A DNA stretch of 64,000 bases from Aliarcobacter sp. Its GTDB lineage: Bacteria; Campylobacterota; Campylobacteria; Campylobacterales; Arcobacteraceae. The position numbers were made by a program, and so were the translations under genes. The notes under the pieces are model-generated. The model saw only the letters and a program-made list of their open reading frames with translations, searched no databases and was not told where the DNA came from. Below are positions 42,448-64,000 of this stretch, piece after piece (within the stretch, counting starts at the first letter, position 1; each line of letters begins with the position of its first letter). The stretch lies in contig JAQVBE010000013.1 of the NCBI GenBank assembly GCA_028690445.1, forward strand, positions 1 to 64,000, read 5' to 3'.

Positions 42448-42468
42448 AATTCATAAATGGAGTTAAAA

Positions 42469-48600: not shown

Positions 48601-49166
48601 AGGTCTGGAATTACACATTCTTGAATATAGTTACTTAAATTCTGATACAAATGAGGAGTAACAATTTGGTGTTTTGTAGATTGACTAAATATAGAAAGAG
48701 GTGTAAAGAAACCGCTATTGCTATATTTCATTCCATCAGGTATTGATGTAGCTGTTTCATAAATTGCACCCATTCTATATTCAAGTGTAGAAAAAAAGCC
48801 TAAAGGCCAACCAACTGCCCATGGAACATCTGTTACTAATCCTGAATTTGAATTGTCTGCTTTATCATCAACATAAATATCTATTTTAGCCGTAACAAAA
48901 ACTGTATACACTCCCATGCTTAATAAAAGAATTTTAGGTAATTTTAAAAAGTCAGGGTTTGGTGTCACCATCATAAAAAGTCCCGAAATCATAGAAATAA
49001 TAAGAGCTACCTTCCAAACATCATTAAATTCATTCACTGAAAACACATATTTAACTACTTTAAGTGTTTCCAACATTAAATCACCATAGCCCCAAGCATA
49101 AGCTTTTTCTGCTGCAAAAAGAAAACTAGAAAGTGTAAACAATAATAGTAGTATTCTCTTTAACAT
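45663..49166 (-). CDS. traG: TraG-like mating-pair stabilisation protein
   Basis: This 1167-aa protein is the last gene of the tra operon. It has a signal peptide and an N-terminal membrane region with several hydrophobic segments (VWKVALIISMISGLFMMV, LLMLLMVTPIGFKTLIGYIM, TIALIIVTGFSLSALASL), as in the TraG_N domain required for pilus assembly and mating-pair stabilisation. From about residue 470 it is a very long Asn/Ser/Gly-rich periplasmic domain. The C-terminus has SDGNF repeats and a charged tail. It exceeds F TraG (about 940 aa). The C-domain is expected to take part in entry exclusion or recipient contact. Confidence 0.85.
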   Translation of the reverse strand: MLKRILLLLFTLSSFLFAAEKAYAWGYGDLMLETLKVVKYVFSVNEFNDVWKVALIISMISGLFMMVTPNPDFLKLPKILLLSMGVYTVFVTAKIDIYVDDKADNSNSGLVTDVPWAVGWPLGFFSTLEYRMGAIYETATSIPDGMKYSNSGFFTPLSIFSQSTKHQIVTPHLYQNLSNYIQECVIPDLENGYKDYRTLIYSDNVWAYMGNTSPATFMLYVDSSNNTSLKTCIDSYMFINTELQNYVGVGGVGMEYLGKSLGMLSASAVSSQLGIANQYLLNSSKTASQMLLQNTAINTFSENFRNYATLNGADLNNTAFHSASASSAASAQMIVSGILGTKYIPLIKGILTIVVIGLTPLLMLLMVTPIGFKTLIGYIMMLAWLASWHFGDVILNHIIITKAQGALSGYGDIKFATRGLVDSTTMDYINMASSMYWTIPTIALIIVTGFSLSALASLNNAMTTKLDRTSSAVGGDMGKGNMSFGNVGHNSYSANSVNAAASTVMGNSMRWDDISTFNQGNQSNRMNNVSTQSGTQFINGGLSANQSYNNLMSGMGKELGFNSISGDSQAVGKDMKGNQIYQATGTMSVSGDNVNGNILSGSTYTQDKNGKISLLDASLDVKTKNGESIESTFKGGMEHKRTMVDSVGNKLESTTMENGIDKNFKWTSGQDNGSFVSGIYNAKSNQAEITDGKVNGVDLNKSNSSSTTYSASTANKTANELTDSWSKGFSQSEALDKAKNQSQALKTDASGRVQINTQDQLAGWLFAKGTGVGANAGLGLGLHYSNDGGLSFKTSDGKTENIQLSGSAKSSFESSLSKNMSDEEKISASRDLIPKQLESAINNGLRNGSNIDNTMENIIRQKDSIHTGNLYGVGNGVTSQVQNGPNFNGVQNQNLDINDSQFYKPEHLKNEVTMKKEALKLSNNEEDIVFGSNVSKSIENGKIYDGSDTSKNELNELNKVYNKSKNEGIGNHAMDSLVQKGQNVAIGGHNLADKVLNENPNSRNLIDNLNSTYSANTTKINPDGENAGNWNNPNSNKETSRDLVYKLNDNGAVDYNRFGNSSVRDWNKVENLPKEDIGKMIKFDDWDKDTTNKLNQIYDSKSDGNFVNQIQPNNQVANAPTTQTPNSKSDGNFDFEPGTKGIEETTKIYTPNQNQQKQKIEEVKDKK

Positions 49167-49936
49167 TATAAGCTCCCTTTAGGCTCTAAATAGTTAATAA
49201 TTTGCTCCAATTGAGTACTATTAGCTTTTTTTTGTATTTCTTTTAAATGCCAAATAAAACTCCAATCACCACAAGACTTGAATATTTCCTGTGCATTAAA
49301 GTTCTTATCATTTCCCTCTGAAATCGTTAAATCTTTAGTTTGAGTGTTTTGGGCAAAAACTACACAAGGAGCTTGAGTAATATTATATTTTCTAAAAAGA
49401 AGTGGATCTATTATTATATTTGGATTGATTTCATTGTTTTTATCATATTGTTTTATTTTTAAAACAAATTCAGCCGTTGGAGCTATTTTTGAACAATTAC
49501 CACCTATACAACCTCTTAAAACCATACTAGTATTAATAAGTTTTTTATTGTGTATTAATTTTCCATAAGTATGCCATATATCAAAAGGTACACTTTCACT
49601 CATAAAAATATAAATTCTATTATTTAAAATAAAATCTTTCAGATTTATTTCTTTTTGTATTTTCAAACCATTTTCCATCGTAAAATTTTTTAGTTCTACT
49701 TTTTCTCCATGTATTCTTCTGCTTTCTATGTCAACATTTTTTAAAGCACTTTTATAAATTTCAGAAATACTATCATTAAATTTTTCTTTGTCTATATTTT
49801 TCTGGATAGGCTCTAAGTTAATATCTTGAGCCTTTATAAAAGCATTATTTTCTAACTCTTTTACAATATCAAATTTGTCAGCTAATAAAAAACTAGTTGA
49901 CAATAATCCAACTAATAATAATTTGTTATAAAGCAC
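49166..49936 (-). CDS. trbC: F-type pilus assembly protein TrbC
   Basis: This 256-aa exported protein has a signal peptide (LLLVGLLSTSFLLAD) and a C-terminal thioredoxin-like TrbC domain. The latter is recognised by FMSESVPFDIWHTYGKL, SMVLRGCIGGN and IIIDPLLFRKYNITQAPCVV, where F-type TrbC/TraW C-domains carry VLRG and IDPxLFxxYxIxxxP. TrbC is needed for early pilus assembly. The start is GTG at 49936 behind AAGGA, overlapping the end of traU by 11 bases. It ends on the first base of the traG start. Confidence 0.85.
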   Translation of the reverse strand: MLYNKLLLVGLLSTSFLLADKFDIVKELENNAFIKAQDINLEPIQKNIDKEKFNDSISEIYKSALKNVDIESRRIHGEKVELKNFTMENGLKIQKEINLKDFILNNRIYIFMSESVPFDIWHTYGKLIHNKKLINTSMVLRGCIGGNCSKIAPTAEFVLKIKQYDKNNEINPNIIIDPLLFRKYNITQAPCVVFAQNTQTKDLTISEGNDKNFNAQEIFKSCGDWSFIWHLKEIQKKANSTQLEQIINYLEPKGSL

Positions 49937-50957
49937 AACAATTCCTTTTTTTATAAGTTATAATAGACCATACATGAGAATTAATAACTGGTACATCTAG
50001 CCCAGGTGACCAAATCATTCCTGTTCTGCCAATAGGTATTCTAAATGGATGTGTCATTAATGGAAAAACAGGATACATGGTATATTGACTTTTTCTCATA
50101 ATAGGCATTGGATATTTTCCACAAAGACCCAAATCACCAATACTCCCCCAGAGCATAAACTGCCTATGAAGCTTAAATAATGTTTTAGAAGCTATAGACA
50201 TAGCTGCTTCAGGTGAAGAAACTCCACTTGTTGACTTTGTAAGCGGAAATGTTTGATTCCAACTACCAAAGCACCAATAAAGAGGATCTAAAGGAAAGCC
50301 TATTTGTGATGTTACAGCATCTGGAATACAAGCAAATTGAGCTATTGGATTTGCAAATAAAAATGCATCTGGATTTACTACAATAGACCACATATCATTT
50401 TGCCACAATGGATCAATAGTTGACAAATAGGCTATATCTATACTTCCATCTAGGTCCATACATAATATATCGAGAAAAAGACTAAGCATTTTAAACAAAG
50501 GGTATTTTATATAGGTAATTTGATACGATTCTTTATTTTGAGTATTAGATTTATTTATTTCTTGAAATGAACTTCCTGCAACAACTCCGATTGGCAAACT
50601 CATACCTAGTGTAGGAACACAATTAGGTATACTTGAAACATCAATTAAAGCATTTGGCTCCCACAATTCTATAGGAATACCTATTCTTGGAAAAGGTGTA
50701 GGACAATAACAAATAGGTGAAGATTTACCAGAAATATCTTCTAGCCCCATTGATGGAGTAATTGATACACCTGCAATTTTTATTGGTAATATATTATAAA
50801 TAGTCGTAATAGTATTCTTAAGTATAGTAACAGCACTTGTAGGACCACCAATTGAAGCATTACAAGCTGCAACAGCAGCTGGTGTTCCAACTGCATTTGC
50901 GTTTGTGTATAAACTCAATAAAAAGGCTAAACTAATTATTATTTTTTTAATCATCAT
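49926..50957 (-). CDS. traU: Conjugative transfer protein TraU
   Basis: About 343 aa, exported (IIISLAFLLSLYTNANA). TraU is a periplasmic, Cys-rich protein needed for DNA transfer. Typical features are multiple cysteines (ICYCPTPFPRIGIPIELWEP, LDILCMDLDGSIDIAYLSTIDP, WCFGSWN, GLCGKYPMPIMRKSQY) and the C-terminal IGRTGMIWSPG. The start at 50957 is chosen because GAAGAGG lies just upstream; an in-frame TTG at 50981 would add eight residues without a site. It overlaps the end of traW. Confidence 0.92.
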   Translation of the reverse strand: MMIKKIIISLAFLLSLYTNANAVGTPAAVAACNASIGGPTSAVTILKNTITTIYNILPIKIAGVSITPSMGLEDISGKSSPICYCPTPFPRIGIPIELWEPNALIDVSSIPNCVPTLGMSLPIGVVAGSSFQEINKSNTQNKESYQITYIKYPLFKMLSLFLDILCMDLDGSIDIAYLSTIDPLWQNDMWSIVVNPDAFLFANPIAQFACIPDAVTSQIGFPLDPLYWCFGSWNQTFPLTKSTSGVSSPEAAMSIASKTLFKLHRQFMLWGSIGDLGLCGKYPMPIMRKSQYTMYPVFPLMTHPFRIPIGRTGMIWSPGLDVPVINSHVWSIITYKKRNCCAL

Positions 50958-51567
50958 CAACCAATACCTCTTCAATAGCAATTCTTTTTTTCTCCTTGTC
51001 TATGTAAATGATAGAAACTGTATGTTCAACTTGAAATTTATCTTTCATTTCTGTTGTTAAAAAATAAACTTTTGAGTTAAAATCTGTTTGCTTTAAATCT
51101 TTATTTTTACACCCTGAATTTACGAGCATATAATCTTTAAGATTTTGCTCATAATCTTCAATTAATTTCTTTACATATTTTGATTCATTGTTGTCACAAG
51201 GATTAAAAACGATAAAATCAGGAGGCATAATATTCATATAATCAATAGGATTGAATGTATATCCTTTTTTATATAACACACCCTCCTGTTTACCAAATCG
51301 GTTGTATTTTGGTATATCTTTATCAAGAGTATAAGATGGGTCTATGTATTTAATTCTATTTATTTTAGCTTTTGAAACTATTTCACCTGTTATATTTTCA
51401 ATCTTTTCAACTATTATTTTCTTTTGCTCTTCCATTTTTCTTTCTATTTCAGGGGCTTTGTTTTCAATTTCTGAAATCAAATCTTGTTCTATAATTTCAT
51501 AAGTATTATTTGAAAAAGCATAAAGTGTTAATACTGTTATACTTAGTACAATTTTCTTTAATCTCAT
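50947..51567 (-). CDS. traW: Conjugative transfer protein TraW
   Basis: A 206-aa exported protein (signal peptide IVLSITVLTLYAFS). The N-terminal half is coiled (EIENKAPEIERKMEEQKKII). The TraW motif YTLDKDIPKYNRFGKQEG followed by YKKGYTFNPIDYMNI is clear at about 79-110, with PFD-like positions replaced by PPDFIVFNPCD. TraW acts with TrbC and TraU in pilus assembly in the periplasm. It overlaps traU by 11 bases and follows the signal-peptidase gene by 17. Confidence 0.88.
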   Translation of the reverse strand: MRLKKIVLSITVLTLYAFSNNTYEIIEQDLISEIENKAPEIERKMEEQKKIIVEKIENITGEIVSKAKINRIKYIDPSYTLDKDIPKYNRFGKQEGVLYKKGYTFNPIDYMNIMPPDFIVFNPCDNNESKYVKKLIEDYEQNLKDYMLVNSGCKNKDLKQTDFNSKVYFLTTEMKDKFQVEHTVSIIYIDKEKKRIAIEEVLVDDD

Positions 51568-51584
51568 CTTTTTACTCCTCTATT

Positions 51585-52079
51585 TTAGAAAAATGGTTTA
51601 GCTTTTCTTAATATTTGAGATTTATCAATAAATCCAAAATATTTACTGTCATAGCTTAAAATATGTTCACCTGAAACAAAATATTTATCTTTTGGAATAA
51701 TTCCATTAAATATAAAATTCTCTACAGGTTTATGTTCTCCATCAAAATAACTTGCTGTACCTATATAATTTTCATTACAAAAATAGTCTCTATTTTTAAC
51801 TTTTAAAAAATCACCTTCTTTACAAACTATTTTTTTTAAATATTTTATGTCAGAATTATTCATGTATTTATTTTTTGGAGGATTAAATAATATATAATTA
51901 GTATTTATTGTTAAATCACTATATGTAATCCAAACTTTTTGTGGCAAACTTTCTTGTTGTGTTATATCAATTCTTATAGGCATTTTTTCATATAAAAGGG
52001 GAATTATAAACAGTAATCCAATAAGCAAGTAAAATAACTTACTTTTAAAAATTACTTCAATATTACTTTTAGTTAACAT
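51585..52079 (-). CDS. TraF-type S26 signal peptidase of the conjugation system
   Basis: The 164-aa membrane protein has one N-terminal hydrophobic segment (FYLLIGLLFIIPLLY). It then shows the S26 pattern: Ser in ITQQESLPQKVW (nucleophile), Lys in LKKIVCKEGD (general base) and a C-terminal strand with KYFVSGEHILSYDSKYFG. In related F-type systems (for example TrhF of R27/SXT) such a peptidase sits between trbI and traW and may mature the pilin. It overlaps trbI by 11 bases. Confidence 0.85.
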   Translation of the reverse strand: MLTKSNIEVIFKSKLFYLLIGLLFIIPLLYEKMPIRIDITQQESLPQKVWITYSDLTINTNYILFNPPKNKYMNNSDIKYLKKIVCKEGDFLKVKNRDYFCNENYIGTASYFDGEHKPVENFIFNGIIPKDKYFVSGEHILSYDSKYFGFIDKSQILRKAKPFF

Positions 52080-52422
52080 AATTTTTCACAGCTTGAGTAA
52101 TAGAAATAAAATTATTTTTATTTGTTTTAACAACTGCTTCCTCAATAAGTAAAATATCTTTTCCATTAGAAAAATAATCTAAAGCATTTTGTATTTTTAA
52201 CATCCTTTCTTCTACTTTTTTTAAATATTCTTCTTGTGAAAGTTTGCCATCTAAAAATTTTTGATATTCATCATCATTTTCATCATTTATTACTGACATC
52301 ATTGATACGGTTTTTACTTTTGGTATAAAATACTTATCTAAGATATATATAATTGCAAAACTTGAGGCTACAGAAATAAAAAACATTACAGCTAATATCA
52401 CTATCCAATCATTTCTTTTCAT
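52069..52422 (-). CDS. trbI: F-type TrbI-like inner-membrane protein
   Basis: A 117-aa protein with one N-terminal transmembrane helix (WIVILAVMFFISVASSFAIIY) and a periplasmic helical domain ending ILLIEEAVVKTNKN, ISITQAVKNYV. F TrbI is 128 aa with the same layout and affects pilus retraction. The position between traC and the peptidase/traW genes is that of trbI in F. The family name matches the F-plasmid gene, not the VirB10-type TrbI. Confidence 0.72.
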   Translation of the reverse strand: MKRNDWIVILAVMFFISVASSFAIIYILDKYFIPKVKTVSMMSVINDENDDEYQKFLDGKLSQEEYLKKVEERMLKIQNALDYFSNGKDILLIEEAVVKTNKNNFISITQAVKNYVN

Positions 52423-52436
52423 CTTTATCTTTCCTT

Positions 52437-55019
52437 TTATCTTTGGGTGTTTTTTTTAGAGTATTCAAGTGCTTTTACAGCTTCAAGTCTTGTATATCCT
52501 TGCTCAACAAATGAATTTATTATCATTCTATCTTCGGCATTTGTAAACAACATTGCTTGTAAAAATTTATTTAGAACAATTCTTGCTTTTGCTCTAAATT
52601 TATCAGTTATTACATATACTTCGCCATACTCTCCATCAACGGGAGCTAAACTATCAAATATTGAATATTCATAATCTGTCATTGGATACAATCCCGATTG
52701 TTTTATTTTTTCTCTTGATGTTGATTTTTGCATTAAAAAGAAATTGTAATAACTGTTATCAATTATTACTCTTCCTGCTTTTGAATACGAACCTCCATCT
52801 CCTAACAAATCTTCATAAGATTGAGTACCCACTATCATAGAAGCCCCATGCTTTCTAAATCTTCTATATGCTTGTTCAATAAACATTTCTATATGCTCAG
52901 ATTTTCCTAAAAATTTATGTGCTTCATCCATAATTACAATATTCTTTTTGTCTTGGTTTGCTTTGTTTAGTTCTGCTAGATATATCTCTTTTGAAATTTG
53001 AAATGTTAAAACCATTAGTACTGGATTTAGTAAATCTGGCATCATTTCCAATTGTCCACATTCTAAAACAATTAAATCTTTTTCAAAAGAAACTGATGAC
53101 TTTCCATTTAAAACTTTGCCGTAGAGCTTTCCTGTTGAGAACAAACTTAAGTGACTAATAAAATCTCTAACTCTTGAATCTTGAATATTTTCATTTATAA
53201 TTTCCAATTCTTTAATAATAGAGTCCACACAGCTATCAATACCATGTAAATCATAACTTTTTTCAATTGCATCGTTTAGATGAAGCTTCATTAGTTTTTC
53301 CCATTCATCTGATAGGTTTTTAGATTTTGGCAACCCTATTAAAAGATATAAAGAAACAATAAATTCCATATATTCATCTAGCATTTCTTTAGTAGTTATT
53401 GATGTAAAAGGATTTAAAGAAACAGGATCGTTCTTATCAAATTCAATGTATTGACCACCAAAGGATTCACACATATTTTTATATGAACCTCCAATATCAA
53501 TAATCCAAATTTTATTGTTTGCTATGTAATAATTTAAAGCTAACCATTGTAACCATACAGATTTTCCTGAACCTGTCATTCCAATAGTAAAAGCATTAAA
53601 TCCACCTGCTTTGTTTGCAAATAAATCCAAACCAAACAATTGACCTTTAGAAGATATAAGAGGTACTTTGATTTTTTGCCCCAAAAACTCGCCACACACA
53701 GGCATTAATTCTGCAATATTTTCTGCAAAAACAATTCTTCCTCTTTCATTACCTAAAAATTGCTGTACATAGCTGTCATATCCTAATGGAAGCATTGACA
53801 ATAATGATGGTAAAACTACATAATTATCTTCTTCTAATCCAAAACTTAGAGTTTTAAAATAGGCTTTTGTTCTACCAAAAGCATTATTAACTTGTTCACT
53901 AGTATCACCATATATTGCTATTTGCATTGTAAAATAATATGGGATAGAACCTTTTTGAAGTTTTTCCATTCCATAGTTCAAATCTTTATGAATTAGTTTT
54001 AATTTAGGAAATAAAGAATAAGGCATTTGTTGTGAATTAGTAGCTGCTGCTGATCTAAATATTTTTTCTTTTCCATCTTTATCATTTAATTTTTTAATGT
54101 TCATTGAAATTATAAAAGGTGTAGAATGATTTTGATTGGTTAAGATATTGCCACTATATTTGATTATATCTCCTAGTTTCCAATCCTCTGGATATTCTTT
54201 AACACTTAAAGTTTTTATATATTTCTTATCACAAACAATTTCTTTACTTTTTACCTCTACTGTATTATCGTTAGCAAATAAAAAATTATTAAAATCAGAA
54301 CCATCCCATTTTGGAGTATCTCTAAAATCATGATTTTGATTTAATACTTCATAAAAGAATTTTATTAGTTTATTTGGTTTTATATGTTCTGGCATTAATC
54401 CAGCTTGTCTTAAAGAACCTGCAAGTTGTGATTTTATTGTTAACAAATCTAAATATTTTTTTCTTAATTCGTAATTATTTATTTTTCTATCATTCTCAAC
54501 ATCTTTAGCCAAGTTTTCTTTTTTAAAGATTTTAGAAAATGATTTTGTATTTAGTTTAAAAATATCGCCAAATAGAGAAGTAGTGTTTTCCTTGCCACCT
54601 ATTTTTACTGTTAGTATAAGTCTAAAATTCCTTAGTGGTGAATTGTAAGTAGCTGTAATATCTTCTTTTACTTTTTTTTCTAAAAAAGTTTTATAGGTTT
54701 TAGTTAATTCTTTTGCTAAAGGCTCATTTCTAGTATTTAAATGCTCCCATGAATCAACCATATCAGTTACATTAGGGCTACCAAAAAGTAGAACTTGCAC
54801 ATAAGCATTTTGAGGCAATACTTGTAGTGCAGATAACAATGAATTTACACTGTTTTCGCTTGAATAAATTAGAGGACTACAATCATATATTAAGCCAAAT
54901 CCCCCATCATTGGTTATCCATATTTTATTTTTATTGTCATAATCAATAATAGGAAGATAATCTGTAATCTTCTCTCTATCATACATTTTTGACCATTCTC
55001 CTAAAGATAAATTGCTCAT
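52437..55019 (-). CDS. traC: TraC (VirB4-type) T4SS ATPase
   Basis: This 860-aa cytoplasmic ATPase energises pilus assembly. Walker A is GMTGSGKSVW (about residues 477-486) and Walker B is NIVIMDEAHKF (about 695-705). IWIIDIGGSYKNMCESFGGQ and IVGTQSYEDLLGD are typical TraC segments. The N-terminal half is the VirB4 substrate-binding region (FGLIYDCSPLIYSSENSV). The length is near that of F TraC (875 aa). It is 12 bases after the second traV-like gene. Confidence 0.95.
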   Translation of the reverse strand: MSNLSLGEWSKMYDREKITDYLPIIDYDNKNKIWITNDGGFGLIYDCSPLIYSSENSVNSLLSALQVLPQNAYVQVLLFGSPNVTDMVDSWEHLNTRNEPLAKELTKTYKTFLEKKVKEDITATYNSPLRNFRLILTVKIGGKENTTSLFGDIFKLNTKSFSKIFKKENLAKDVENDRKINNYELRKKYLDLLTIKSQLAGSLRQAGLMPEHIKPNKLIKFFYEVLNQNHDFRDTPKWDGSDFNNFLFANDNTVEVKSKEIVCDKKYIKTLSVKEYPEDWKLGDIIKYSGNILTNQNHSTPFIISMNIKKLNDKDGKEKIFRSAAATNSQQMPYSLFPKLKLIHKDLNYGMEKLQKGSIPYYFTMQIAIYGDTSEQVNNAFGRTKAYFKTLSFGLEEDNYVVLPSLLSMLPLGYDSYVQQFLGNERGRIVFAENIAELMPVCGEFLGQKIKVPLISSKGQLFGLDLFANKAGGFNAFTIGMTGSGKSVWLQWLALNYYIANNKIWIIDIGGSYKNMCESFGGQYIEFDKNDPVSLNPFTSITTKEMLDEYMEFIVSLYLLIGLPKSKNLSDEWEKLMKLHLNDAIEKSYDLHGIDSCVDSIIKELEIINENIQDSRVRDFISHLSLFSTGKLYGKVLNGKSSVSFEKDLIVLECGQLEMMPDLLNPVLMVLTFQISKEIYLAELNKANQDKKNIVIMDEAHKFLGKSEHIEMFIEQAYRRFRKHGASMIVGTQSYEDLLGDGGSYSKAGRVIIDNSYYNFFLMQKSTSREKIKQSGLYPMTDYEYSIFDSLAPVDGEYGEVYVITDKFRAKARIVLNKFLQAMLFTNAEDRMIINSFVEQGYTRLEAVKALEYSKKNTQR

Positions 55020-55031
55020 AAAATCATCCTT

Positions 55032-55406
55032 TTACTTTAATGGGGTTAAAGTTTTTGGATTAGATTGTCTATCTTGACCATTTAGATACTCACCTAAAAT
55101 CCATCTTCCATCATCTACTTTTACAAAATGAAAATTTTCAGTTTGAAGATTCATGTCTTCGTCTACATAAGGCATCACAAGAACTCTAAGTATTTTATCT
55201 GGAGTCTTAACTGGCATTTTTGGAGAATACATTGTTTCGCTCAAAAAAGCTTTCCTCTGTTTTTCATATAAAGAATCAGCTTTTATAATTTTTTCTTGAG
55301 GAACAATTTTTCTCAGACTTGAATTATCATTATTTTGTTTTGTTGCACAACCTGTAAAAAGAAACAGTCCACTCAAAGTTGCGATTACTAATATTTGTTT
55401 TTTCAT
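55032..55406 (-). CDS. TraV C-terminal-half lipoprotein
   Basis: A 124-aa lipoprotein with its own signal peptide and lipobox (LFLFTGC, Cys about 19). The second half, MPVKTPDKILRVLVMPYVDE followed by VKVDDGRWILGEY, corresponds to the C-terminal half of TraV as found in R27/SXT-like F-type systems. The N-terminal TraV part (CSG, paired cysteines, SVSxVY) is missing here but is encoded by the preceding small gene at 55419. An AGGAGATATAAAA site precedes the ATG. Confidence 0.75.
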   Translation of the reverse strand: MKKQILVIATLSGLFLFTGCATKQNNDNSSLRKIVPQEKIIKADSLYEKQRKAFLSETMYSPKMPVKTPDKILRVLVMPYVDEDMNLQTENFHFVKVDDGRWILGEYLNGQDRQSNPKTLTPLK

Positions 55407-55418
55407 TTTTTATATCTC

Positions 55419-55598
55419 CTATCTTTGTTGTTCTAGTATAGTTATTTCATAAACATCGGATACACTTCCACAATATCCTGAACCCTTACCTGAATTACAT
55501 AATGGGTCTTCTTCGTAAGGCATAAATACTTTTCCACTACAACCCGTAAACAAATATAGAATAAATACTGTAGATATTGATATTTTTATTGTTTTCAA
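55419..55598 (-). CDS. TraV N-terminal-half small lipoprotein
   Basis: A 59-aa gene starting at TTG 55598 behind GGAGAAAA, one base after the traB stop. It has a signal peptide with lipobox (LFTGC, Cys 20), directly followed by SGKVFMPYEEDPLCNSGKGS and GYCGSVSDVYEI. The CSG start, the two spaced cysteines and the (G)CxSVSxVY end match the N-terminal half of TraV, the outer-membrane lipoprotein of the F-type core (VirB7 analogue). The frame stops 12 bases before the next lipoprotein gene, which carries the C-terminal half. Confidence 0.75.
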   Translation of the reverse strand: MKTIKISISTVFILYLFTGCSGKVFMPYEEDPLCNSGKGSGYCGSVSDVYEITILEQQR

Positions 55599-55599
55599 T

Positions 55600-56796
55600 T
55601 TAATTTTCTCCTTCAGATATTTCTTCTAATACAACAGTTTTATTAAACATCACATCCCCCTGTCTACCAACATTTATTTCAATTATTGAAAACATTTGAT
55701 CATTTAGTTTTAAATAATACTCACTAAGTTTTTTAGCACCTTCTCCAATGCCAGAATATATTCCAACTTGTGTTGCTTTGTTAGGATCTATAGTAGATGT
55801 AACCCCTAAACCAGATGTATTTACAGAAGATGAAGACTCTTTAAAAACTTGTCCCATTCCCTCAACAAATCCAGCAGCCATTGTTCTAGCTAGTATTGCT
55901 CCTTGTTTTGTAACTACTCTTCCACTTAATCCGATTTTTCCATCTTCACCAGTTACAAATCCTACTACTTCACCTTTACTTTCGTATGTTGTACCATCGT
56001 TTGCAATGCAAATCAAATTTTCAACTCTTATTATTGCTCTTTCACTTGATAACTCTCCATATCCACCTGCAGTTGCCCTACACTCTTTTATATCAGATTT
56101 ATATTTATTGGGAAGATTTGCATTATGTGTAATTCTTAAAATTACAGGATGTGGCTCATTTTTTGCATTTGCATTTGCAGGTGCATCAAGTCCATTGAGC
56201 AAAGTTGCTTTTACAAAACTTCCTGCAGGAATAGTAATTTTTTTCTTTTTCTTTTCTTTTTGTTGCTCTTTATTTTGTAATAAATCATTATCTTCAGAAT
56301 TTTGTATATTGTTATCAACTACTAAAAGATTATCTTCCACTTTTATTTCTATTTTTGAAGTTTCAGTTGTTTCATTTTGTTGACTATTTAAATTATTTTC
56401 AATTGTTTCTAAAGGAGGAATAGCTATGTCTAAGCTATTTAATATATTATTTGATGGATTATTATTTGTAAATTGTTCATTTTTTTTCTCAAATTCTTTT
56501 TTATTTTTTTCATCTAAAACTCGTATTAATTCTTTTAATTGCTTTTCTGTTTCTATTTGTTTTTGCTGAATAGAAGTTAATTCTTTTCCATAAGTTTCTT
56601 TAAATGAATCTTTTTCAATTTTGTCTGAATCAATATATTTAACTTTTGGCATTTCCAGTTGCTTTATTTCTTTTTGTTTTTGTGCATCACCACTTAGCAA
56701 AGAACTTCCCACAACAATAACGATAAATCCAGCAACTAATGCTGTTGCACTAATTAAGAGTTGTTTCTTTTTTGTTGGTTCAAATTTTTCTTTCAT
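55600..56796 (-). CDS. traB: TraB (VirB10-type) core complex protein
   Basis: This 398-aa protein spans from the inner to the outer membrane in the T4SS core. One N-terminal transmembrane helix (LLISATALVAGFIVIVVGSS) is followed by a coiled coil (about 45-115) and a charged, low-complexity linker. The VirB10-like beta-barrel domain follows (IPAGSFVKATLLNGLDAPAN, RAIIRVENLICI, GRVVTKQGAILARTMAAGFV). It overlaps traK by four bases. The length is below that of F TraB (475 aa), mainly in the linker. Confidence 0.92.
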   Translation of the reverse strand: MKEKFEPTKKKQLLISATALVAGFIVIVVGSSLLSGDAQKQKEIKQLEMPKVKYIDSDKIEKDSFKETYGKELTSIQQKQIETEKQLKELIRVLDEKNKKEFEKKNEQFTNNNPSNNILNSLDIAIPPLETIENNLNSQQNETTETSKIEIKVEDNLLVVDNNIQNSEDNDLLQNKEQQKEKKKKKITIPAGSFVKATLLNGLDAPANANAKNEPHPVILRITHNANLPNKYKSDIKECRATAGGYGELSSERAIIRVENLICIANDGTTYESKGEVVGFVTGEDGKIGLSGRVVTKQGAILARTMAAGFVEGMGQVFKESSSSVNTSGLGVTSTIDPNKATQVGIYSGIGEGAKKLSEYYLKLNDQMFSIIEINVGRQGDVMFNKTVVLEEISEGEN

Positions 56797-57692
56797 TTTA
56801 AAAATTCCTCACTAACAAACAATTCTTCAATCTTCGGATTATGCTTATCTTTTAATGCTTCTTTTTCATCCTTGTTATTTAAATCTTCTAATGATCTAAA
56901 AAAGTTTTGTTTTTTTTCTTCTATTGTAATTGGATCTGGAGTAGCGTTTGAAACAACAAACAATCTAGCTTCTTCATTTTTTTGAAGATTTAATTCAGTT
57001 AAAGAAATAGCAAGGGGATTATTTGCTACAAAATTTATAAACATTTTTTCATCTAATTCAATATTTTCTAATGCAGTTATTTTATATTCATAAATCATAT
57101 AATCATTACCTGTGTATGTTTTTATAGGTAAAAGCTCTAATTCATTGAATTTTATATATTTTGGAGGGAGTATTTTAGTTATGTAACCATCTGGTTCTTT
57201 TTCTTTGTAAACATCTTTTATAATATTTATTACAGTTTTTTCAAAAGGATTTGATTGTTCAAATCTTTTAGCTTTAATATTATTTTTTCTTGTACCATCA
57301 TCAAAAAGAAGGATTGTTTGTGCGGAAATATCTTTTGGTATTAAATTTAACGAGTATATTTTTTGATTACATTCTAAATACACATCTCTATTAAATTCAT
57401 TTATAACAGAATCAATAACAACATTGTTAGATCTTGTTATTACGGGTAATAATTTAATAAATGCATTTTCACCATCTTTTTGTATTGATATTTCTTTATC
57501 TTTAGAATATACAACCTTACCAAATTCGCCATTCTCACAAATTATTCTATTTACATCAGTTTTTGAAACATCTACAAATTTAAATGATAATGAATGTTCT
57601 ATCTTTTTTAAATTATTATCAATTATTGAATTTGCACTCAAACTTGACGCAACCAAAAATAAAGTACTAAGTAAAACTTTATTATAGAGCAT
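56793..57692 (-). CDS. traK: TraK (VirB9-type) secretin-like core protein
   Basis: A 299-aa exported protein (signal peptide LLSTLFLVASSLSA). The TraK signature FKFVDVSKTDVNRIICENGE is at about 37-56, then KVVYSKDKEISIQKDGENAF. It forms the periplasmic/outer-membrane ring with TraB and TraV. The last 70 residues are charged and variable. It is the first gene of the second tra operon, with the repeated regulatory sequence (57702-57792) directly upstream. Confidence 0.9.
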   Translation of the reverse strand: MLYNKVLLSTLFLVASSLSANSIIDNNLKKIEHSLSFKFVDVSKTDVNRIICENGEFGKVVYSKDKEISIQKDGENAFIKLLPVITRSNNVVIDSVINEFNRDVYLECNQKIYSLNLIPKDISAQTILLFDDGTRKNNIKAKRFEQSNPFEKTVINIIKDVYKEKEPDGYITKILPPKYIKFNELELLPIKTYTGNDYMIYEYKITALENIELDEKMFINFVANNPLAISLTELNLQKNEEARLFVVSNATPDPITIEEKKQNFFRSLEDLNNKDEKEALKDKHNPKIEELFVSEEFLK

Positions 57693-57701
57693 ATTTATAA
57701 T

Positions 57702-57792
57702 CCTTATGTTTTATTTATATATCAATTAAAACAGCAAAGAGGATTATTTTTGGAATGATTTATATTTTTTATTAAAATTAATAATATATTTT
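57702..57792 (-). promoter_or_regulatory. Repeated tra regulatory sequence upstream of traK
   Basis: Read on the minus strand, this block carries in order AAAATATA, an AATAAAAAATA stretch, ATTCCAAAAA, TAATCCTCTTTG, TGTTTTAATTGATATA, and AAACATAAGGAT leading to the traK ribosome-binding site. The same blocks in the same order and spacing occur upstream of traA (60110-60201). TTGATATA fits an extended -10 region. It is probably the operon promoter plus a binding site for a tra regulator; the regulator is not identified. Confidence 0.65.
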
Positions 57793-57838
57793 AATTTCAC
57801 TTTTGATATTATTCCGCCTCAAAAATAAAGAGGTACGA

Positions 57839-58015
57839 ATGACACAATTTGAAGAAATAAATACAAGAGCAGAATATTTTACAGAATATTTTTCTTTTGA
57901 TGATAATTTTCCATTTGCTGTGCAAATATTAGATGAAAATGAATCAGAAATAGAAATTAAAGTCTTTCCAACAAAAGAAGAAGCTTTGATTTTTGAAAAA
58001 GAATACAACATATGA
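57839..58015 (+). CDS. Small 58-aa protein on the opposite strand of the tra operons
   Basis: The 58-aa acidic protein starts at ATG 57839 behind AGAGG; an in-frame ATG at 57803 is less likely because it lacks a good site. The sequence MTQFEEINTRAEYFTEYFSF is followed by a compact beta-like stretch (IEIKVFPTKEEALIFEKEY). It is the only plus-strand gene in the T4SS region and diverges from traK, sharing its promoter region. It could be a regulator or exclusion factor, but no family is recognised. Confidence 0.6.
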   Translation: MTQFEEINTRAEYFTEYFSFDDNFPFAVQILDENESEIEIKVFPTKEEALIFEKEYNI

Positions 58016-58046
58016 TTTGAGAATTTTATATTTTTTTTCTCAATTC

Positions 58047-58130
58047 TTATGTTATAAAAAATAGGATTAAAAGTGAAACTAATAGAAAAGCAAAAAATAA
58101 CCAATCTAATTTTGTAAACTTATCTAACAT
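58047..58130 (-). CDS. 27-aa single-helix membrane peptide
   Basis: This short frame starts at ATG 58130 behind AAAAAGGG and ends at TAA 58047. It reads MLDKFTKLDW followed by a hydrophobic helix LFFAFLLVSLLILFFIT, which gives a clear membrane topology. It lies between the transglycosylase gene and traK on the same strand. Small hydrophobic genes are common in tra operons, for example entry exclusion or pilus-related. Reality rests on the start site and the composition only. Confidence 0.45.
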   Translation of the reverse strand: MLDKFTKLDWLFFAFLLVSLLILFFIT

Positions 58131-58235
58131 ATCTAAACCCTTTTTGATAAAATAATATTTTAGCAAACAAATGACTCATAAATAACTCTTTTTTGATATA
58201 AATTAATTATTTACAAGTCTTTTAAGTTATTTTTG

Positions 58236-58805
58236 CTAATTTGAAATCAAAAACTCTGATTTAATAAAATTATTTGAATTTTCTTTCTTTGATAATTTAA
58301 TATAATTCTTAATCAATTTTTTTTTGTAAATTTTATTGTATTCAGGTGTCATAGAATGATAAGAAGCTAAAACTTCCCAACTCCATTTGTCTTTATTTAT
58401 TTTTATTTTTTCTTGAATTACTTTACATGCATTTTTGTATGAAGCATTTTTATCAAAATATGAAAACAATGGATATTTAAAACTATCATAATTAATCTGA
58501 AATAGACCAAGATCTAAATTTGTTATATTATTTCTAATTAAATCGGTTGAAATGTTTACACAATTTTGCAGATTTATACAATCTATTACCATTGTATCTT
58601 TTGTATTTCTTCCTCCAAGTGTTTTAGAAATCTTTTTAAATTTCTCTAAAGTAGAAGATTGATTTGTTCTTATTAAAAAAGGATAAGAGGCTTCATTTTC
58701 AGTAATTTTTACAGTTTTTAATAAAATATCAGGAACAATACATCTCTCATTTGCATTAATTAACTGAACTAAAACAAAAAGAAATGATATTGTTCTGAAC
58801 AACAT
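58236..58805 (-). CDS. VirB1-like lytic transglycosylase of the conjugation system
   Basis: A 189-aa exported protein (signal peptide FRTISFLFVLVQLINA). It has the SLT fold outline: the catalytic Glu probably in KITENEASYPF (about 36), then ITNLDLGLFQINYDSF and WEVLASYHSMTPEYNKIYKKK, as in TrbN/VirB1-type enzymes that locally open peptidoglycan for the T4SS. The Glu environment is less conserved than in housekeeping Slt. It overlaps traE by one base. Confidence 0.8.
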   Translation of the reverse strand: MLFRTISFLFVLVQLINANERCIVPDILLKTVKITENEASYPFLIRTNQSSTLEKFKKISKTLGGRNTKDTMVIDCINLQNCVNISTDLIRNNITNLDLGLFQINYDSFKYPLFSYFDKNASYKNACKVIQEKIKINKDKWSWEVLASYHSMTPEYNKIYKKKLIKNYIKLSKKENSNNFIKSEFLISN

Positions 58806-59356
58806 TATTTACTTACCTCAAAACCTTTAATAACTAATTTTTTGTTATTAACTTTATAATTGAATATTATTTGTACCTTTTTTTCTTCAATCATAATATT
58901 TCCAGTCATTGTTTTTAAAAGTCCTTCAACAGTAAAACTATTATTTTTGTGATTCGGTAATGTTTTTGAATAATAAAAAGCTTGATATATATTATCTTTT
59001 TTTATTCTGTCTGTTTCTTTAATCAAAAAATCTTTAACTGCTTTTATTTCATCAGGTTCACTACTAAAATAACCTTGTATTGAATCAAATGATTTGTTTA
59101 CACTTGACGGACTTATTGTTAATAATGCATTGCTCAAATGTGCACCAATTTGTTCATAATAGCTAAAACTAAAAGTATCACCAACATTTTCAAACTCACT
59201 CGTTATATATGGAGGAGTAATAATAATTTTTGTATTTTTATTAGCAGTAACTAAATTTTCTATTAAATATAAATTTACAAGCACAAGAAGAAATGAAAAA
59301 ATTTTAAATAAGTCTAGTTGTCTTAGATTTCTGTTGTATTCACCGAAAAATTTCAT
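58805..59356 (-). CDS. traE: TraE (VirB5/8-like) inner-membrane protein
   Basis: The 183-aa protein has one N-terminal transmembrane helix (LFKIFSFLLVLVNLYLIENL) preceded by the basic NRNLRQLD and followed by a periplasmic domain, as in F TraE (188 aa). Features are IITPPYITSEFENVGDTFS, a region SPSSVNKSFDSIQGYFSSEP and a C-terminal beta region (VQIIFNYKVNNKKLVIKGF). It follows traL by 12 bases in the order A-L-E, as in F. Confidence 0.85.
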   Translation of the reverse strand: MKFFGEYNRNLRQLDLFKIFSFLLVLVNLYLIENLVTANKNTKIIITPPYITSEFENVGDTFSFSYYEQIGAHLSNALLTISPSSVNKSFDSIQGYFSSEPDEIKAVKDFLIKETDRIKKDNIYQAFYYSKTLPNHKNNSFTVEGLLKTMTGNIMIEEKKVQIIFNYKVNNKKLVIKGFEVSK

Positions 59357-59368
59357 ATATCCTCTTTT

Positions 59369-59647
59369 TCATCTTGTAAGTTCTCTACACCAACTCTCAG
59401 GAACTCTATTTTTTAATCCATAAAGTCCCAAATGGTATGCTAAATGTTTTTGATAACCAGCTTCCTTTTCTGAAGTAAGTTTAGTGCTTACTTTTAAAAA
59501 GATAATTCCTAAAATTAAAAACAAAAATGGATGGTCAGCTAAAACACCAAAAAAAACAAAAAATAAAACTTTCATAAAATCAGATAAATCCCACCACAAT
59601 ATTTGTGGTTCAGCATTTAAATATTTAGGTATATATCTTCCCTCCAT
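59369..59647 (-). CDS. traL: TraL pilus assembly protein
   Basis: A 92-aa membrane protein with the TraL pattern: N-terminal IPKYLNAEPQILWWDLSDF, two hydrophobic segments (MKVLFFVFFGVLADHPFLFLIL region), then KHLAYHLGLYGLKNRVPESW near the end, where F TraL has a similar YW/GL..R.P motif. Its length equals that of F TraL (91 aa). It lies 8 bases after traA, in the order expected for F-type loci. Confidence 0.88.
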   Translation of the reverse strand: MEGRYIPKYLNAEPQILWWDLSDFMKVLFFVFFGVLADHPFLFLILGIIFLKVSTKLTSEKEAGYQKHLAYHLGLYGLKNRVPESWCRELTR

Positions 59648-59655
59648 AATTATCC

Positions 59656-60015
59656 TTAAATAGAAGAAAATTTATCTACTAAGTTATTAAAAGAACATTG
59701 CATACTAAAATAAGATTCAATAGAAAATGACTCAACCATTAATGCAGTGTATTTTGCATCAACTATGTCAGGTATTGTTCCCACACCCAAACCTACTAGC
59801 ATCATAAATATTCCACCCAGAATAGAACCACCTTTAAATAGTATAATTGTAAGTCCCAAAAAAGCTACAGCAATTATTTTACCCCATGTTCCTTTCAGAG
59901 CGTTAGAAATATCTAAATACCATGCATTAACTTCACTTCCACCAGTTCCTGCAAAAGCTGAAACACCTAAAATACTAAATAAAATAACTAGTTTTAAAAA
60001 TATTTTTTTATCCAT
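59656..60015 (-). CDS. traA: TraA-like F-type pilin precursor
   Basis: This 119-aa protein has an N-terminal signal region (IFLKLVILFSILGVSAFA). Then GGSEVNAWYLDISNALKGTW is followed by two hydrophobic helices (KIIAVAFLGLTIILFKGG and IFMMLVGLGVGTIPDIV) separated by a short Gly-rich loop. This is the topology of conjugative pilins (VirB2/TraA), and the gene precedes traL and traE. It has a C-terminal extension of about 30 residues (after IVDAKYTALM) containing one Cys that may be processed. The upstream regulatory sequence is shared with traK. Confidence 0.82.
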   Translation of the reverse strand: MDKKIFLKLVILFSILGVSAFAGTGGSEVNAWYLDISNALKGTWGKIIAVAFLGLTIILFKGGSILGGIFMMLVGLGVGTIPDIVDAKYTALMVESFSIESYFSMQCSFNNLVDKFSSI

Positions 60016-60109
60016 TAATTACCTTTTTAATTGAATTTGATTGTTAATCTTAAAAAAGACACCTATATTTAAAGTAAACTCTAATGAGGTTAGTTAACTA
60101 ATAATCTCT

Positions 60110-60201
60110 CCTTTTATGTTTAAATTTCTTATAACAATTAAAACAAGAGAAGATTAATTTTTTGGAATTTTTTTATTTTTTATCAAAATTTAGTATATTT
60201 T
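60110..60201 (-). promoter_or_regulatory. Repeated tra regulatory sequence upstream of traA
   Basis: Minus-strand blocks match those before traK: AAAATATA, TTTTGATAAAAAATA, ATTCCAAAAAA, TTAATCTTCTCTTG, TGTTTTAATTGTTATAAG, AAACATAAAAGGAG. TTATAAG fits a -10 element. A 12-bp perfect palindrome TTAGTTAACTAA follows at about 60090-60101, and about 95 bases of leader separate the block from the traA start. Probably the promoter and regulator site of the traALE operon. Confidence 0.65.
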
Positions 60202-60214
60202 TTATGTTGAGCTA

Positions 60215-61825
60215 TTAGTTTGAAGAGCAAGTAAAATCTTTTACAGCATCTTCAACTGCACTTGCAAAACCTATTGCCATTCCAGCTGCATTCATATTTA
60301 AATTACAACTGCATACATCAAGAACTGTTTCATTGCTTTCGGTTTGGCAAAAATAATTACTATTAGCTAACTGATTACATTTTTTAAATTCATATTCAAT
60401 AGTACTAACTCCATCTTTCGTTGATGAATTTGAAGTACTATCTGTATATACTTGTGTATGAATAGTTTCTTTTTTAACCCTACAATACCTAATTTGACAA
60501 TTTTCAAACTCTCCCAAATTAATATTTTGTGAAGTCCCATTAAAATCAGTATAATTTACTGTTGAACCAGTTTTATTAACTGAATCAAATGTTCTATTAC
60601 TTTTACTAGCATCATATTGTAATGTTTGACTTCCGCAATCATAATGTCTTTTAATATAAAAATAACTATCATTTGAAGAAGAGTATATATTAGAAGAAAT
60701 TCCAGTAATGTTTGAAACTTTTGATATATTATTGCCATTTGCACAAATTTGATACTCACTATTGAATATATTACATTGAATAGGTATTGAAAGCGATGTT
60801 AATGTATTGTTTAATATCCTATCAATACAATTTCTTCCAGAACTATCACAAATTTCTTCTCTGTTTATAGAACAGCTATAATTAGCTATACAATTATCTT
60901 TCATTTCTATTTTTATATTTCCATTATCATCTAAGTAAGGTTTTTTAATTACTGTACAAACTTGAGTATTTTTTATTGAAATATTATGATTTGCACCACC
61001 ATTAATTGAATTAATAAGAGTATTATTTTGATTGCTTGTGACATAGTATAAACTATCATTCTTCTTGCCATCTTTCATTGCAACATCAGCAAGGTCTAAA
61101 GGTGGTATTGATTGAGAAGAATAATAGCTTGTTGGGTTAGTGTTCGTATAGTTATTTCCTAGATTTAAATCTTTACAACTAGTATTATTTTTAATATAAA
61201 GATAATAAGTTTTGTTGGATGAATCATAACGATTAATCCCTACTTGATAATTTGAAATTCCTGATGAACCTATTATTCCAATTATATCACCTGTTATCTT
61301 ATCAGCTATGCTTTGACTATAACCACCAAATTGACATGCATTTGTAATACAATAACATCCTCCTAATTCACTCCTTGCAACTTCAATTAATGATATTTTT
61401 TTATTTGTAGTATTGAAATTATATTTGTAATGCTTTGAGTTATTAGACTTAAATCCTCCACTGCATATATTTTCTATTCCTGAAAATATAGTTGAATAGT
61501 CATAAGAACTTGTTGCATTTAAATCTTGATTAACTTGCACATTCAATACTCCATTTGATTGTGGTTGAAAGGTTAATTTTATACCCTCATTATTTTCAGC
61601 ACAACTCTCTAATTTTGACGAAAATAATTTACTTCCATCAATAGTACTCAACTGACCACTTCCTTGCAATGGAGCAGATATATTAGAATTAATTTTACTT
61701 TTCGAGCCATATTTTGTAATAGCACTTTGTCCTGCAGAAGAACCACTATTCTTAGCATCAATTTTATCATTTGAAAAAGAAACAATTGAAAACAATATAA
61801 ACACAAATCCAATAATTTTTTTCAC
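60215..61825 (-). CDS. TraN-like cysteine-rich mating-pair protein
   Basis: A 536-aa exported protein (signal peptide GFVFILFSIVSFSN), rich in Cys, Asn and Ser. Cysteines cluster in RSELGGCYCITNACQFGG and in the C-terminal third (FCQTESNETVLDVCSCNLN). Pairing and position fit TraN, the outer-membrane adhesin that stabilises donor-recipient contacts, but the sequence is divergent from F TraN, so the name is tentative. It lies between traH and the traA operon and its stop is followed by the repeated regulatory sequence. Confidence 0.6.
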   Translation of the reverse strand: MKKIIGFVFILFSIVSFSNDKIDAKNSGSSAGQSAITKYGSKSKINSNISAPLQGSGQLSTIDGSKLFSSKLESCAENNEGIKLTFQPQSNGVLNVQVNQDLNATSSYDYSTIFSGIENICSGGFKSNNSKHYKYNFNTTNKKISLIEVARSELGGCYCITNACQFGGYSQSIADKITGDIIGIIGSSGISNYQVGINRYDSSNKTYYLYIKNNTSCKDLNLGNNYTNTNPTSYYSSQSIPPLDLADVAMKDGKKNDSLYYVTSNQNNTLINSINGGANHNISIKNTQVCTVIKKPYLDDNGNIKIEMKDNCIANYSCSINREEICDSSGRNCIDRILNNTLTSLSIPIQCNIFNSEYQICANGNNISKVSNITGISSNIYSSSNDSYFYIKRHYDCGSQTLQYDASKSNRTFDSVNKTGSTVNYTDFNGTSQNINLGEFENCQIRYCRVKKETIHTQVYTDSTSNSSTKDGVSTIEYEFKKCNQLANSNYFCQTESNETVLDVCSCNLNMNAAGMAIGFASAVEDAVKDFTCSSN

Positions 61826-61834
61826 AAAAAATCC

Positions 61835-63355
61835 TTATTTATTTATTGTTTCTAAAAACATTAAATTGTTAAGTAAATCTGGTTGAGTTCTCACCATTAC
61901 AAGTTGTTTTAATTCTTTTGCTTTTTTTATAGACTCATTTCTATTCAACTTTGATAAAAAAGTTCTATATGAATCATTGTAAATCTTGAAACATACTCCT
62001 GCTGATTGTCTTGTAGCTTCTGACATTTCTTTTAAATATTCTCTAAGATCACCTTTATTTGTAATTGGAAGTTTTGTTGTTTGAGATGCATATGTATCAA
62101 GTTCTGAAACTCTTTTTTGTATTTCAAAAGATGCTTTAATTAGTAGTTCATATAATATTTGAGCAGATAACATGGTTGATAGTTCTTTACTACTATCATC
62201 AAGAACACTGAGTGTAAAATCATTATTTCCTAAAGTATTAAAAATTTTATAAACTGGAAAATCAAATCTACCCAAGAATTCTAATTCTTGAGTTGTAAGT
62301 GATGTTCTATTAATAATTTTACTTACTATAGATTTAACTTTATTAAAATATTCATTATGCAAAGTTCCTTTTGGAAATGTACTATTTGTAGATGATTCAA
62401 TCTCATCTGAATCATTATAAATCGTAGGGAAATTATCAGTTTCTCCAATGAGTCGTTTTAAAATATTTTCAACATTTGTATTAAATGTTCTTATGTCATT
62501 TTTATCTCTCATTGCAGTTGTAAAATATGCCCTACTTCCTGTTTCAAGAGGAGGAAGAAAATTAATTACAGTTGGATTATCACTATTTGCTATTGAAATA
62601 ATCTTTATGTCACCCGTTAGTGCTCTCAAAATGTTGTAATCTAACCCATTAATATATGAGATGTTGTTAAACATATACTTCAATAAATAATTATTTCCAG
62701 AGCTAACATTTGTTTGAGACAAAAACATTATTAATTTAGGTCTTCTTAAAGGGTCATTATTTCCTACACCAGCCAACCAATTATTTGATTTTTGTAGAAA
62801 GTCCGTTCCTGATTTCAAATAGTTTTCATTCATTCCTTTAAAAAAATTATTCGCACTATTGTTGGATAAATCATCTTTAGTATTATTTCCTACTATTGCT
62901 TCGAGAGCACTACTTCCTAATGCTGTTGCAGCCTGACAACTATCTAAACTCATATTATTAATTTGATTAGCCATCGATTGCAAAGCTTTTAAAGTTTCTG
63001 AACAAGATGGGCAAAGTGTTTTCAATGCTAAATCAAAAGCAACACCTGGAGCTGCTGCCATAATTCCTTCAGCAAACTTAACAAATTGCTCTTTGTCTAA
63101 AAAGCCTAGAGAACCAAAAACCATATCAATCCCACCACAACCAGCTTTTATTGATGGAGCTTTCACAGCAAAAGGAGTTAATTTTATATTTGGAACTTTC
63201 ATTGTATATCCACCACCGAATAAAACAGTTCTATCATTTGTATTTAGAGTCCCTCCACTTTCTTTGACACTAACAACACCATCTGCGAAATTTTTCAAAC
63301 TTGCATTTGAAAAACTAATTGTTAAGCAGATTATTAAAAAAATCTTTTTCATCAT
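61835..63355 (-). CDS. traH: Conjugal transfer pilus assembly protein TraH
   Basis: A 506-aa exported protein (signal peptide IFLIICLTISFSNA). The TraH family pattern is clear: TVLFGGGYTMKVPNIKL, APSIKAGCGGIDMVFGSLGF, then KTLCPSCSETLKALQSMANQ. The C-terminal half is helical. TraH is a periplasmic protein with outer-membrane association needed for F pilus assembly. It follows traF by 19 bases and is followed by the traN-like gene after 9 bases. Confidence 0.93.
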   Translation of the reverse strand: MMKKIFLIICLTISFSNASLKNFADGVVSVKESGGTLNTNDRTVLFGGGYTMKVPNIKLTPFAVKAPSIKAGCGGIDMVFGSLGFLDKEQFVKFAEGIMAAAPGVAFDLALKTLCPSCSETLKALQSMANQINNMSLDSCQAATALGSSALEAIVGNNTKDDLSNNSANNFFKGMNENYLKSGTDFLQKSNNWLAGVGNNDPLRRPKLIMFLSQTNVSSGNNYLLKYMFNNISYINGLDYNILRALTGDIKIISIANSDNPTVINFLPPLETGSRAYFTTAMRDKNDIRTFNTNVENILKRLIGETDNFPTIYNDSDEIESSTNSTFPKGTLHNEYFNKVKSIVSKIINRTSLTTQELEFLGRFDFPVYKIFNTLGNNDFTLSVLDDSSKELSTMLSAQILYELLIKASFEIQKRVSELDTYASQTTKLPITNKGDLREYLKEMSEATRQSAGVCFKIYNDSYRTFLSKLNRNESIKKAKELKQLVMVRTQPDLLNNLMFLETINK

Positions 63356-63374
63356 TTGAACAGCCCCTTTTATT

Positions 63375-64000
63375 TTAATATTCTAAATAATCTTGTGAGA
63401 TCTTTTTAAAAGAATACAAACTTGCCAAAATCCCAGACTTTAAATCTTGTATAGTGTGTAATCCATTTCCGAATCTTGTTAATAATGGTTCGTCACCCTT
63501 GTCTCTATATAATAAAAAAAGGTCGGGAGTCTTTTGGACTTGATAATTAACTGCAAATTCTTTGTTTTTAGAAATATCAACTTCTTTAAATTCTACGCCA
63601 AATTCATTTTCAAATTCTTTTAAAAGAGGCATTTGCTCCTTACAATATGGACAAGTTGGAAGCGTCGCAACCAAAATAATCATATCTTTTCTGTGTTCAG
63701 ATATAACTTTTCTTTGCTTTTCCCATAAATTAGTTCTTTTTGCATCTATGACAAGCCTACTATTCATTGATGTTTCACTAGCCCAATTTGATATTTCGGC
63801 ATTTTGCTTTGTAACAAGATAATTTGTGTCCACAAAACCCATCGCTTGATTAGATATAAATTTTTGGAGTTTTTTGTATTCAACCATATTTTCTTGTGTA
63901 GGATAAACAACTGCAATATTTCTTGTATCAACTTCAAGTTGCAGAATTTCATCTGGATGCAACTTATCTAAAATTTCCCAAGGAATATAAGTTGTTGAGG
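63375..64000 (-). CDS. traF: TraF pilus assembly protein, thioredoxin-like, partial (runs off right edge)
   Basis: The frame is open through the window end, so the N-terminus is missing; a TTG at 63962 is an internal codon, because the upstream frame continues with the TraF-like STTYIPWEILDK. LHPDEILQLEVDTRNIAVVYPT is typical of TraF, cited here by its core VDTRNIAVVYPT. A thioredoxin fold follows with ATLPTCPYCKEQMPLL (CPYC redox motif) and QVQKTPDLFLLY (cis-Pro). It acts in the periplasm in pilus assembly, probably as a disulfide factor for the many cysteines of TraU, TraN-like and TraH. Confidence 0.9.
   Translation of the reverse strand, partial: STTYIPWEILDKLHPDEILQLEVDTRNIAVVYPTQENMVEYKKLQKFISNQAMGFVDTNYLVTKQNAEISNWASETSMNSRLVIDAKRTNLWEKQRKVISEHRKDMIILVATLPTCPYCKEQMPLLKEFENEFGVEFKEVDISKNKEFAVNYQVQKTPDLFLLYRDKGDEPLLTRFGNGLHTIQDLKSGILASLYSFKKISQDYLEY

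Follow-up and report, generated by a model that had tools for sequence, protein, structure and literature searches.

Introduction

The F-type transfer genes of the F plasmid form a single tra operon, which is expressed from one main tra promoter under the control of TraJ. To our knowledge, few studies have addressed how bacteria other than the Gammaproteobacteria turn on F-type conjugation. In the SXT/R391 elements, the CI-related SetR represses setCD, and nine major SetCD peaks are located upstream of genes or operons (PMC4344509). The tra promoters have poor −35 elements, which the SetCD boxes overlap or adjoin (PMC4344509). The AcaCD regulon of the IncA/C plasmids also governs F-type transfer through a single activator site present at many plasmid promoters.

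Here we analyzed 64,000 nucleotides of Aliarcobacter sp. (the whole stretch, hereafter the window), which contain part of a conjugative element split across two contigs (C1 and C8). The locus resembles the SetCD regulon in that one motif precedes several separate transfer operons (four, in two elements), that the transfer genes are of the F type, with a TraD closest to the SXT TraD model, and that the element encodes a CI-like repressor and carries recombination genes. However, the motif is unrelated in sequence to the SetCD box, no FlhC/FlhD-like activator was found among the scanned candidates, only four promoters are known, their copies appear to undergo concerted evolution, and a DNA-binding model is the only one that the CI-like protein matches. 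The logic looks like that of SetCD, but the motif differs, as does the regulator as far as tested, and we have not filed the locus as a SetCD regulon. It differs from the AcaCD system in host phylum, motif and regulator and in being integrated in the chromosome, and from the F plasmid in having at least four operons, each with its own copy of the module.

Results

A repeated block upstream of traK and traA

The tra region of the window and its surroundings contain the following features.

45663-57692, minus strand: operon traK-traB-traV-traC-(117 aa)-S26 peptidase-traW-like-traU-trbC-traG
56793..57692, minus strand: traK, first gene of this operon
57700..57705, minus strand: Shine-Dalgarno sequence AAGGAT of traK, just 3′ of copy 1, seen directly in the sequence
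57711..57793, minus strand: module copy 1, upstream of traK; 34-nt core ATTCCAAAAA-N14-GTTTTAATTG at 57723-57756; 38.7 bits with model R1 (see below)
57839..58015, plus strand: 58-aa ORF, divergent from traK in their common intergenic region
58236..60015, minus strand: operon traA-traL-traE-transglycosylase-like gene (slt)
60097..60115, minus strand: putative relic ribosome-binding site (RBS) AAAAGGAGAGATTATTAG without usable start codon, after copy 2
60125..60205, minus strand: module copy 2, upstream of traA; core at 60135-60168; 47.6 bits with model R1
60215..64000, minus strand: 3′ part of operon dsbC-(147 aa)-traF-traH-536 aa, with its putative promoter beyond the window
65562-65643 of the contig, outside the window: module copy 3, putative promoter of dsbC

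An earlier note, made from the window, had described a regulatory block of about 90 bp repeated before traK and traA. The repeat is real: the same pieces are found in the same order on the minus strand at the positions noted. Local alignment of the two upstream regions gave a score of 87, spanning 57711-57793 and 60125-60205, as compared with 26±4 for 300 pairs of dinucleotide-preserving shuffles (sd 3.9, maximum 39). The blocks are 81% identical by mean column identity (MAFFT counting) and 65% when gaps are counted. Both contain ATTCCAAAAA-N14-GTTTTAATTG, and the relaxed pattern ATTCCAAAAA-N{10,18}-GTTTTAATTG matched the window only in these two blocks, with 0 matches expected from 100 dinucleotide shuffles of the window. 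The unit is, however, better described as about 85 nt with a 34-nt core. Copy 1 directly precedes its operon, as had been said of both, but between copy 2 and the start codon of traA there are about 110 bp, which include an apparently dead RBS.

The names traK and traA hold, the first by a Pfam match and the second by an NCBIfam match below cutoff. Pfam or NCBIfam matches were also obtained for TraL, E, B (TrbI), V, C, U, F, H, G, N and TraD, while TraW and TrbC were assigned by position only. Judged on these assignments, traA, L, E, K, B, V, C, W, U, trbC, F, H, N and G together with the coupling protein are classed as an F-type type IV secretion system. The 58-aa ORF belongs to no known family and is absent from the sister element described below. 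The tra region is bordered downstream by a plus-strand gene (44385-45521) for a Fic/DOC-domain protein with DUF4172, for which no counterpart was found in the sister element. Two different tyrosine recombinases (40472-41638 and 42457-43383) lie near the chromosomal edge of the element; identity with the sister element is 72% for the 308-aa recombinase but only 30% for the 388-aa one. The other edge, at C8 ~51800, appears to adjoin an FtsK-like translocase gene.

Four copies in the genome

An exact pattern search of the whole 2.42-Mb genome returned one further match (C1:65574-65607), and the reversed pattern used as a control returned none. This copy lies 1.6 kb past the window end and 32 bp before a dsbC-like gene, the head of the operon dsbC-(147 aa)-traF-traH-(536 aa). 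Since the sister element carries a copy before traN, a copy was predicted before the traN-traD-traI operon of this genome and was found there on contig C8, as ATTCCAAAAAATCTTGCTTTTATTGTTTTAATTATAATC. With a weight matrix built from the three other copies, it ranked first among the remaining positions (~190 kb; 21.1 versus 16.9). The earlier note had reported two copies and suggested searching before traD or traI for a third; both copies stand, and the genome contains exactly four (traK, traA, dsbC and traN; 36.7-47.6 bits with model R1), with a spacing of exactly 14 nt between the core pieces in each. The view that the repeat serves both pilus operons was too narrow, as all four transfer operons are covered, including the coupling protein and the relaxase candidate.

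A sister element carries the same module

Among the 104 genomes of the family, a close traK (~72% identical) was found only in G014, another species of the same genus, and one distant traK in G017. G014 carries a collinear element, whose tra proteins are ~60-87% identical to those of the window's element. It contains four copies of the module (53-60.6 bits) before the same four operons, dsbC, traA, traK and traN. The upstream regions of its dsbC and traK share 118 bp of exact identity, including spacer, leader and start codon, and its traN heads the operon traN-(242 aa)-traD-HD-domain relaxase candidate. The traA-L-E operon had seemed to be lost from the sister element, a reading that we rejected: traA-L-E-slt lies ~50 kb away in inverted orientation and retains its module copy (G014:C1:1103000-1107000, corresponding to window 58236-60015). 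BLAST with the DNA around the relocated traE identified copies before traA (97.8%) and traN (95.9%). G014 also holds an additional ORF between traL and traE.

In the window, direct copies of the block flank traA-L-E-slt, an operon placed elsewhere in the sister element, as would be expected if the repeat were duplicated DNA left by recombination on either side of a mobile traA-L-E cassette and played no part in regulation. However, copies also precede dsbC and traN, always at operon starts and on the coding strand, in both species, and we consider such a remnant very improbable. The proposal of a shared regulatory unit is strongly supported by the four operons, the two species, the fixed spacing, the position at operon starts and the copy retained by the relocated operon.

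The spread of the module was evaluated with R1, a sequence-only covariance model of all eight copies. R1 scores these at 36-61 bits, but they are its own training set and the informative part is the score gap below them. In 31 genomes of the genus, the best match outside the eight copies reached 22.2 bits, and nothing comparable to the module was found in the 29 other genomes. On pACIB (Aliarcobacter cibarius), the distant F-type loci of the genus and eight other Campylobacterales loci, no match exceeded 10.6 bits. A weak pattern match in G026 and all R1 matches of 22 bits or less were treated as background. Single pattern matches in 60 viral contigs look like chance in AT-rich DNA and were rejected as further copies; conserved-peptide scans of the genome and viral contigs for relatives found nothing. 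Among the elements examined, only two carry the module.

The distant F-type system in G017 (contig C106, locus L015) also has a common sequence upstream of its traA operon, a ParA-like gene and a 177-aa gene. This sequence is, however, an unrelated perfect palindrome, ACTTAATATATATTAAGT upstream of traA, and the tra genes run as one long series from traA. Close variants precede the ParA-like and the third gene (genes at 1421-1996(-), 2271-2804(-) and 3688-3969(+)). The palindrome is a putative shared operator of a different kind in another F-type element of the genus.

Anatomy of the module

The 10 bases of TGTTTTAATT are invariant in all eight copies. The piece upstream of it is rich in C-A-A and begins at a distance of 24 nt from the G of TGTTTTAATT; it reads ATTCCAAAAA in this genome and TATTCATAAAA or TATTCATCAAA in the sister element. 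It is preceded by A/T-rich DNA with short A-runs. On the 3′ side of TGTTTTAATT, A/T bases form a potential −10 element, which is TATAAT in the traN copy; in the other copies the predicted hexamer is weak and its register differs. A leader and then a Shine-Dalgarno sequence follow. Conservation is concentrated in the core, the orthologous flanks (traK versus traK) being at chance (30 versus 27±4). A sigma-70 scan of the region gave 24 sites, with no excess over shuffled sequences (21.1±4.8).

The traA leader has the same build in both species: the module is followed by a strong Shine-Dalgarno sequence with a dead start (AAAAGGAGAGATTATTAG in the window, AAGGAGGAAATATTGAAAAGATAA in the sister element), by 80-90 nt more and then by the real start codon, which is served by its own separate RBS. 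In G014 (C1 ~1106400), as in the window, the strong Shine-Dalgarno sequence leads to no usable start or to a 3-codon mini-ORF. This Shine-Dalgarno sequence may be a relic, or possibly a 5′ stabilizer of the pilin mRNA. We infer that, before the divergence of the two elements, the module was copied to traA and brought the start of another gene along.

An element acting in the RNA leader, such as an attenuator, an antitermination site or a hairpin near the RBS, is a very improbable explanation. Of the four copies in the window's genome, three allow inverted repeats of the type TGTTTTA...TAAAACA to be drawn, but their spacing varies and stems of equal length occur in 3-85% of the shuffled downstream sequences, depending on the copy. 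The leader hairpin was rejected as within shuffled expectation. Furthermore, Rfam gave no match to a curated RNA family, and the similarity of the candidate regulator h225 (see below) to NusA is not above noise.

Copies are more alike within than between elements

Within the sister element, the copies are 94-100% identical over ~85 bp. Those of the window's element are 47-65% identical over the full length of the block and 62-76% when counted from the core on. Orthologous positions of the two elements are no more alike than non-orthologous ones. The traK-traK and traA-traA upstream pairs are at chance (each 30 versus 27±4), but the dsbC-dsbC pair is above it (74) over a longer region which includes replication-origin DNA. 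The proteins common to both elements are 52-87% identical. The copies are thus far more alike within than between elements, which points to concerted evolution by gene conversion or recopying. Because the traA relic suggests that the copies predate the split of the elements, homogenization at a later time explains the data most simply. A RecE-like exonuclease (phrog_434, E=8e-19) is encoded in both elements, and its gene adjoins that of a protein with weak RecT/Bet similarity (E ~1e-3, below cutoffs); these two could homogenize the copies.

Six iteron-like repeats TTTGTGTTTTTTGKGKACA lie between dsbC and the gene of a Rep3-type initiator (L004:2782-3137; C1 ~65782-66137), and six of another sequence, TGTAMCVAAAAATCAC, occupy the same place in the sister element. 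Like the promoters, the iterons are alike inside one element and different between elements.

As an alternative without a dedicated regulator, a plain housekeeping promoter could have been copied before each operon and kept alike by gene conversion, and the 118 bp of identity between dsbC and traK of G014 exceed what a binding site needs. TTTTAAT, the A/T-rich −10 and the A/T-rich upstream region also suit Epsilonproteobacterial promoters, for which A/T-rich upstream regions have been reported as needed (PMC3656092). However, in the window's element the 34-nt core holds its exact spacing although identity in the flanks is down to 33-67%, which argues for selection on the core beyond homogenization. 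In addition, no such core was found at other sites of the genome, which abounds in housekeeping promoters. We regard the housekeeping promoter as a serious but rather unlikely explanation.

Candidate regulators

A CI-like protein (C1:69822-70436), also present in G014, is the recognizable DNA-binding regulator among the genes common to both elements and matches the Phage_CI_repr helix-turn-helix model. As regards cleavage in the SOS response, the Pfam match covers the DNA-binding part only, and inspection by eye showed no GDSM-like serine motif. Its gene is divergent from the operon uvrD-h156-h225-rep, which ends beside dsbC. The orphans h156 and h225 (C1:67049-68177) occur only in the two module-bearing genomes among the 399 of the order; the match of h156 to a second gene, in G260, was discarded as weak and spurious, this gene being unrelated and phosphotransferase-like. 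Neither h156 nor h225 matched a Pfam, PHROG, NCBIfam or PDB family, and in the part of the element that was read (on C8, beyond position 33000) the scan of the shared candidates h156, h225 and the CI-like protein gave no match to FlhC or FlhD. The h156 and CI-like proteins (52% and 56% identical) are among the most diverged proteins common to both elements; this fits a regulator and its site changing together, but is suggestive only.

The two conserved boxes with constant spacing, ~24 nt apart, might also be read by an alternative sigma factor encoded by the element. Its candidate would be h156, which co-occurs with the module and whose size and basic helical look had suggested an ECF factor by eye. 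However, h156 has no sigma-family match, and when it was compared with ECF factors from its genus, the profile probability was 0.1% and the alignment z values were 0.3 and 2.4; h156 was rejected as an ECF factor, and we hold a sigma factor of this kind to be quite improbable. A NusA-like (N-terminal/S1) identity of h225, which had also been suggested by eye, was likewise rejected (hhalign probability 0.1%, alignment z 1.4-1.9).

The A. cibarius plasmid pACIB encodes a distant homologue of h225 (L012 3804-4478(-), 24% identical) beside UvrD-like helicase and divergent CI-like genes. Since pACIB keeps this h225/UvrD-like/CI-like cluster, the cluster is probably older than the promoter module.

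Discussion

The explanation that we favor, with a probability of roughly 60%, is that the module is the promoter/operator of a tra regulon of four operons in an integrated F-type conjugative element, under a dedicated and most likely element-encoded regulator. The regulon would tie together dsbC-traF-traH, traA-L-E, traK-B-V-C-W-U-trbC-G and traN-D-I, and all parts of the DNA-transfer machine are probably turned on and off together. The −10 region would consist of TGTTTTAATT and the next A/T bases. The dedicated regulator would bind the ATTCCAAAAA piece ~24 nt farther upstream, at about −35 to −47, and would replace the missing −35 element. By analogy with SetR-SetCD, a CI-like repressor may stand on top of a cascade, acting on an activator which in turn would act on tra. 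Gene conversion or recopying, possibly via the RecE-like and RecT/Bet-like proteins, would keep the copies alike within each element. The single dedicated regulator put forward in the earlier note is plausible, but we could tie no DNA-binding protein to the motif, and gene conversion may explain much of the similarity between the copies without a regulator.

The candidates from the operon uvrD-h156-h225-rep are h156 and h225. In a bolder and decidedly speculative version, which we consider unlikely, h156 and/or h225 would be a new kind of conjugation master regulator that binds to the module, site and regulator would change together, and the four promoters would be homogenized by the recombination genes of the element.

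These data provide a concrete and testable tra regulon in an Arcobacter-like lineage, with four promoters, one motif and few candidate regulators. They also describe a mobile element whose regulatory DNA has apparently undergone concerted evolution, all promoters of a regulon changing jointly between related elements. If the bolder version were true, a whole regulon could move to a new binding sequence at once, and sister elements would become insulated from each other in their regulation.
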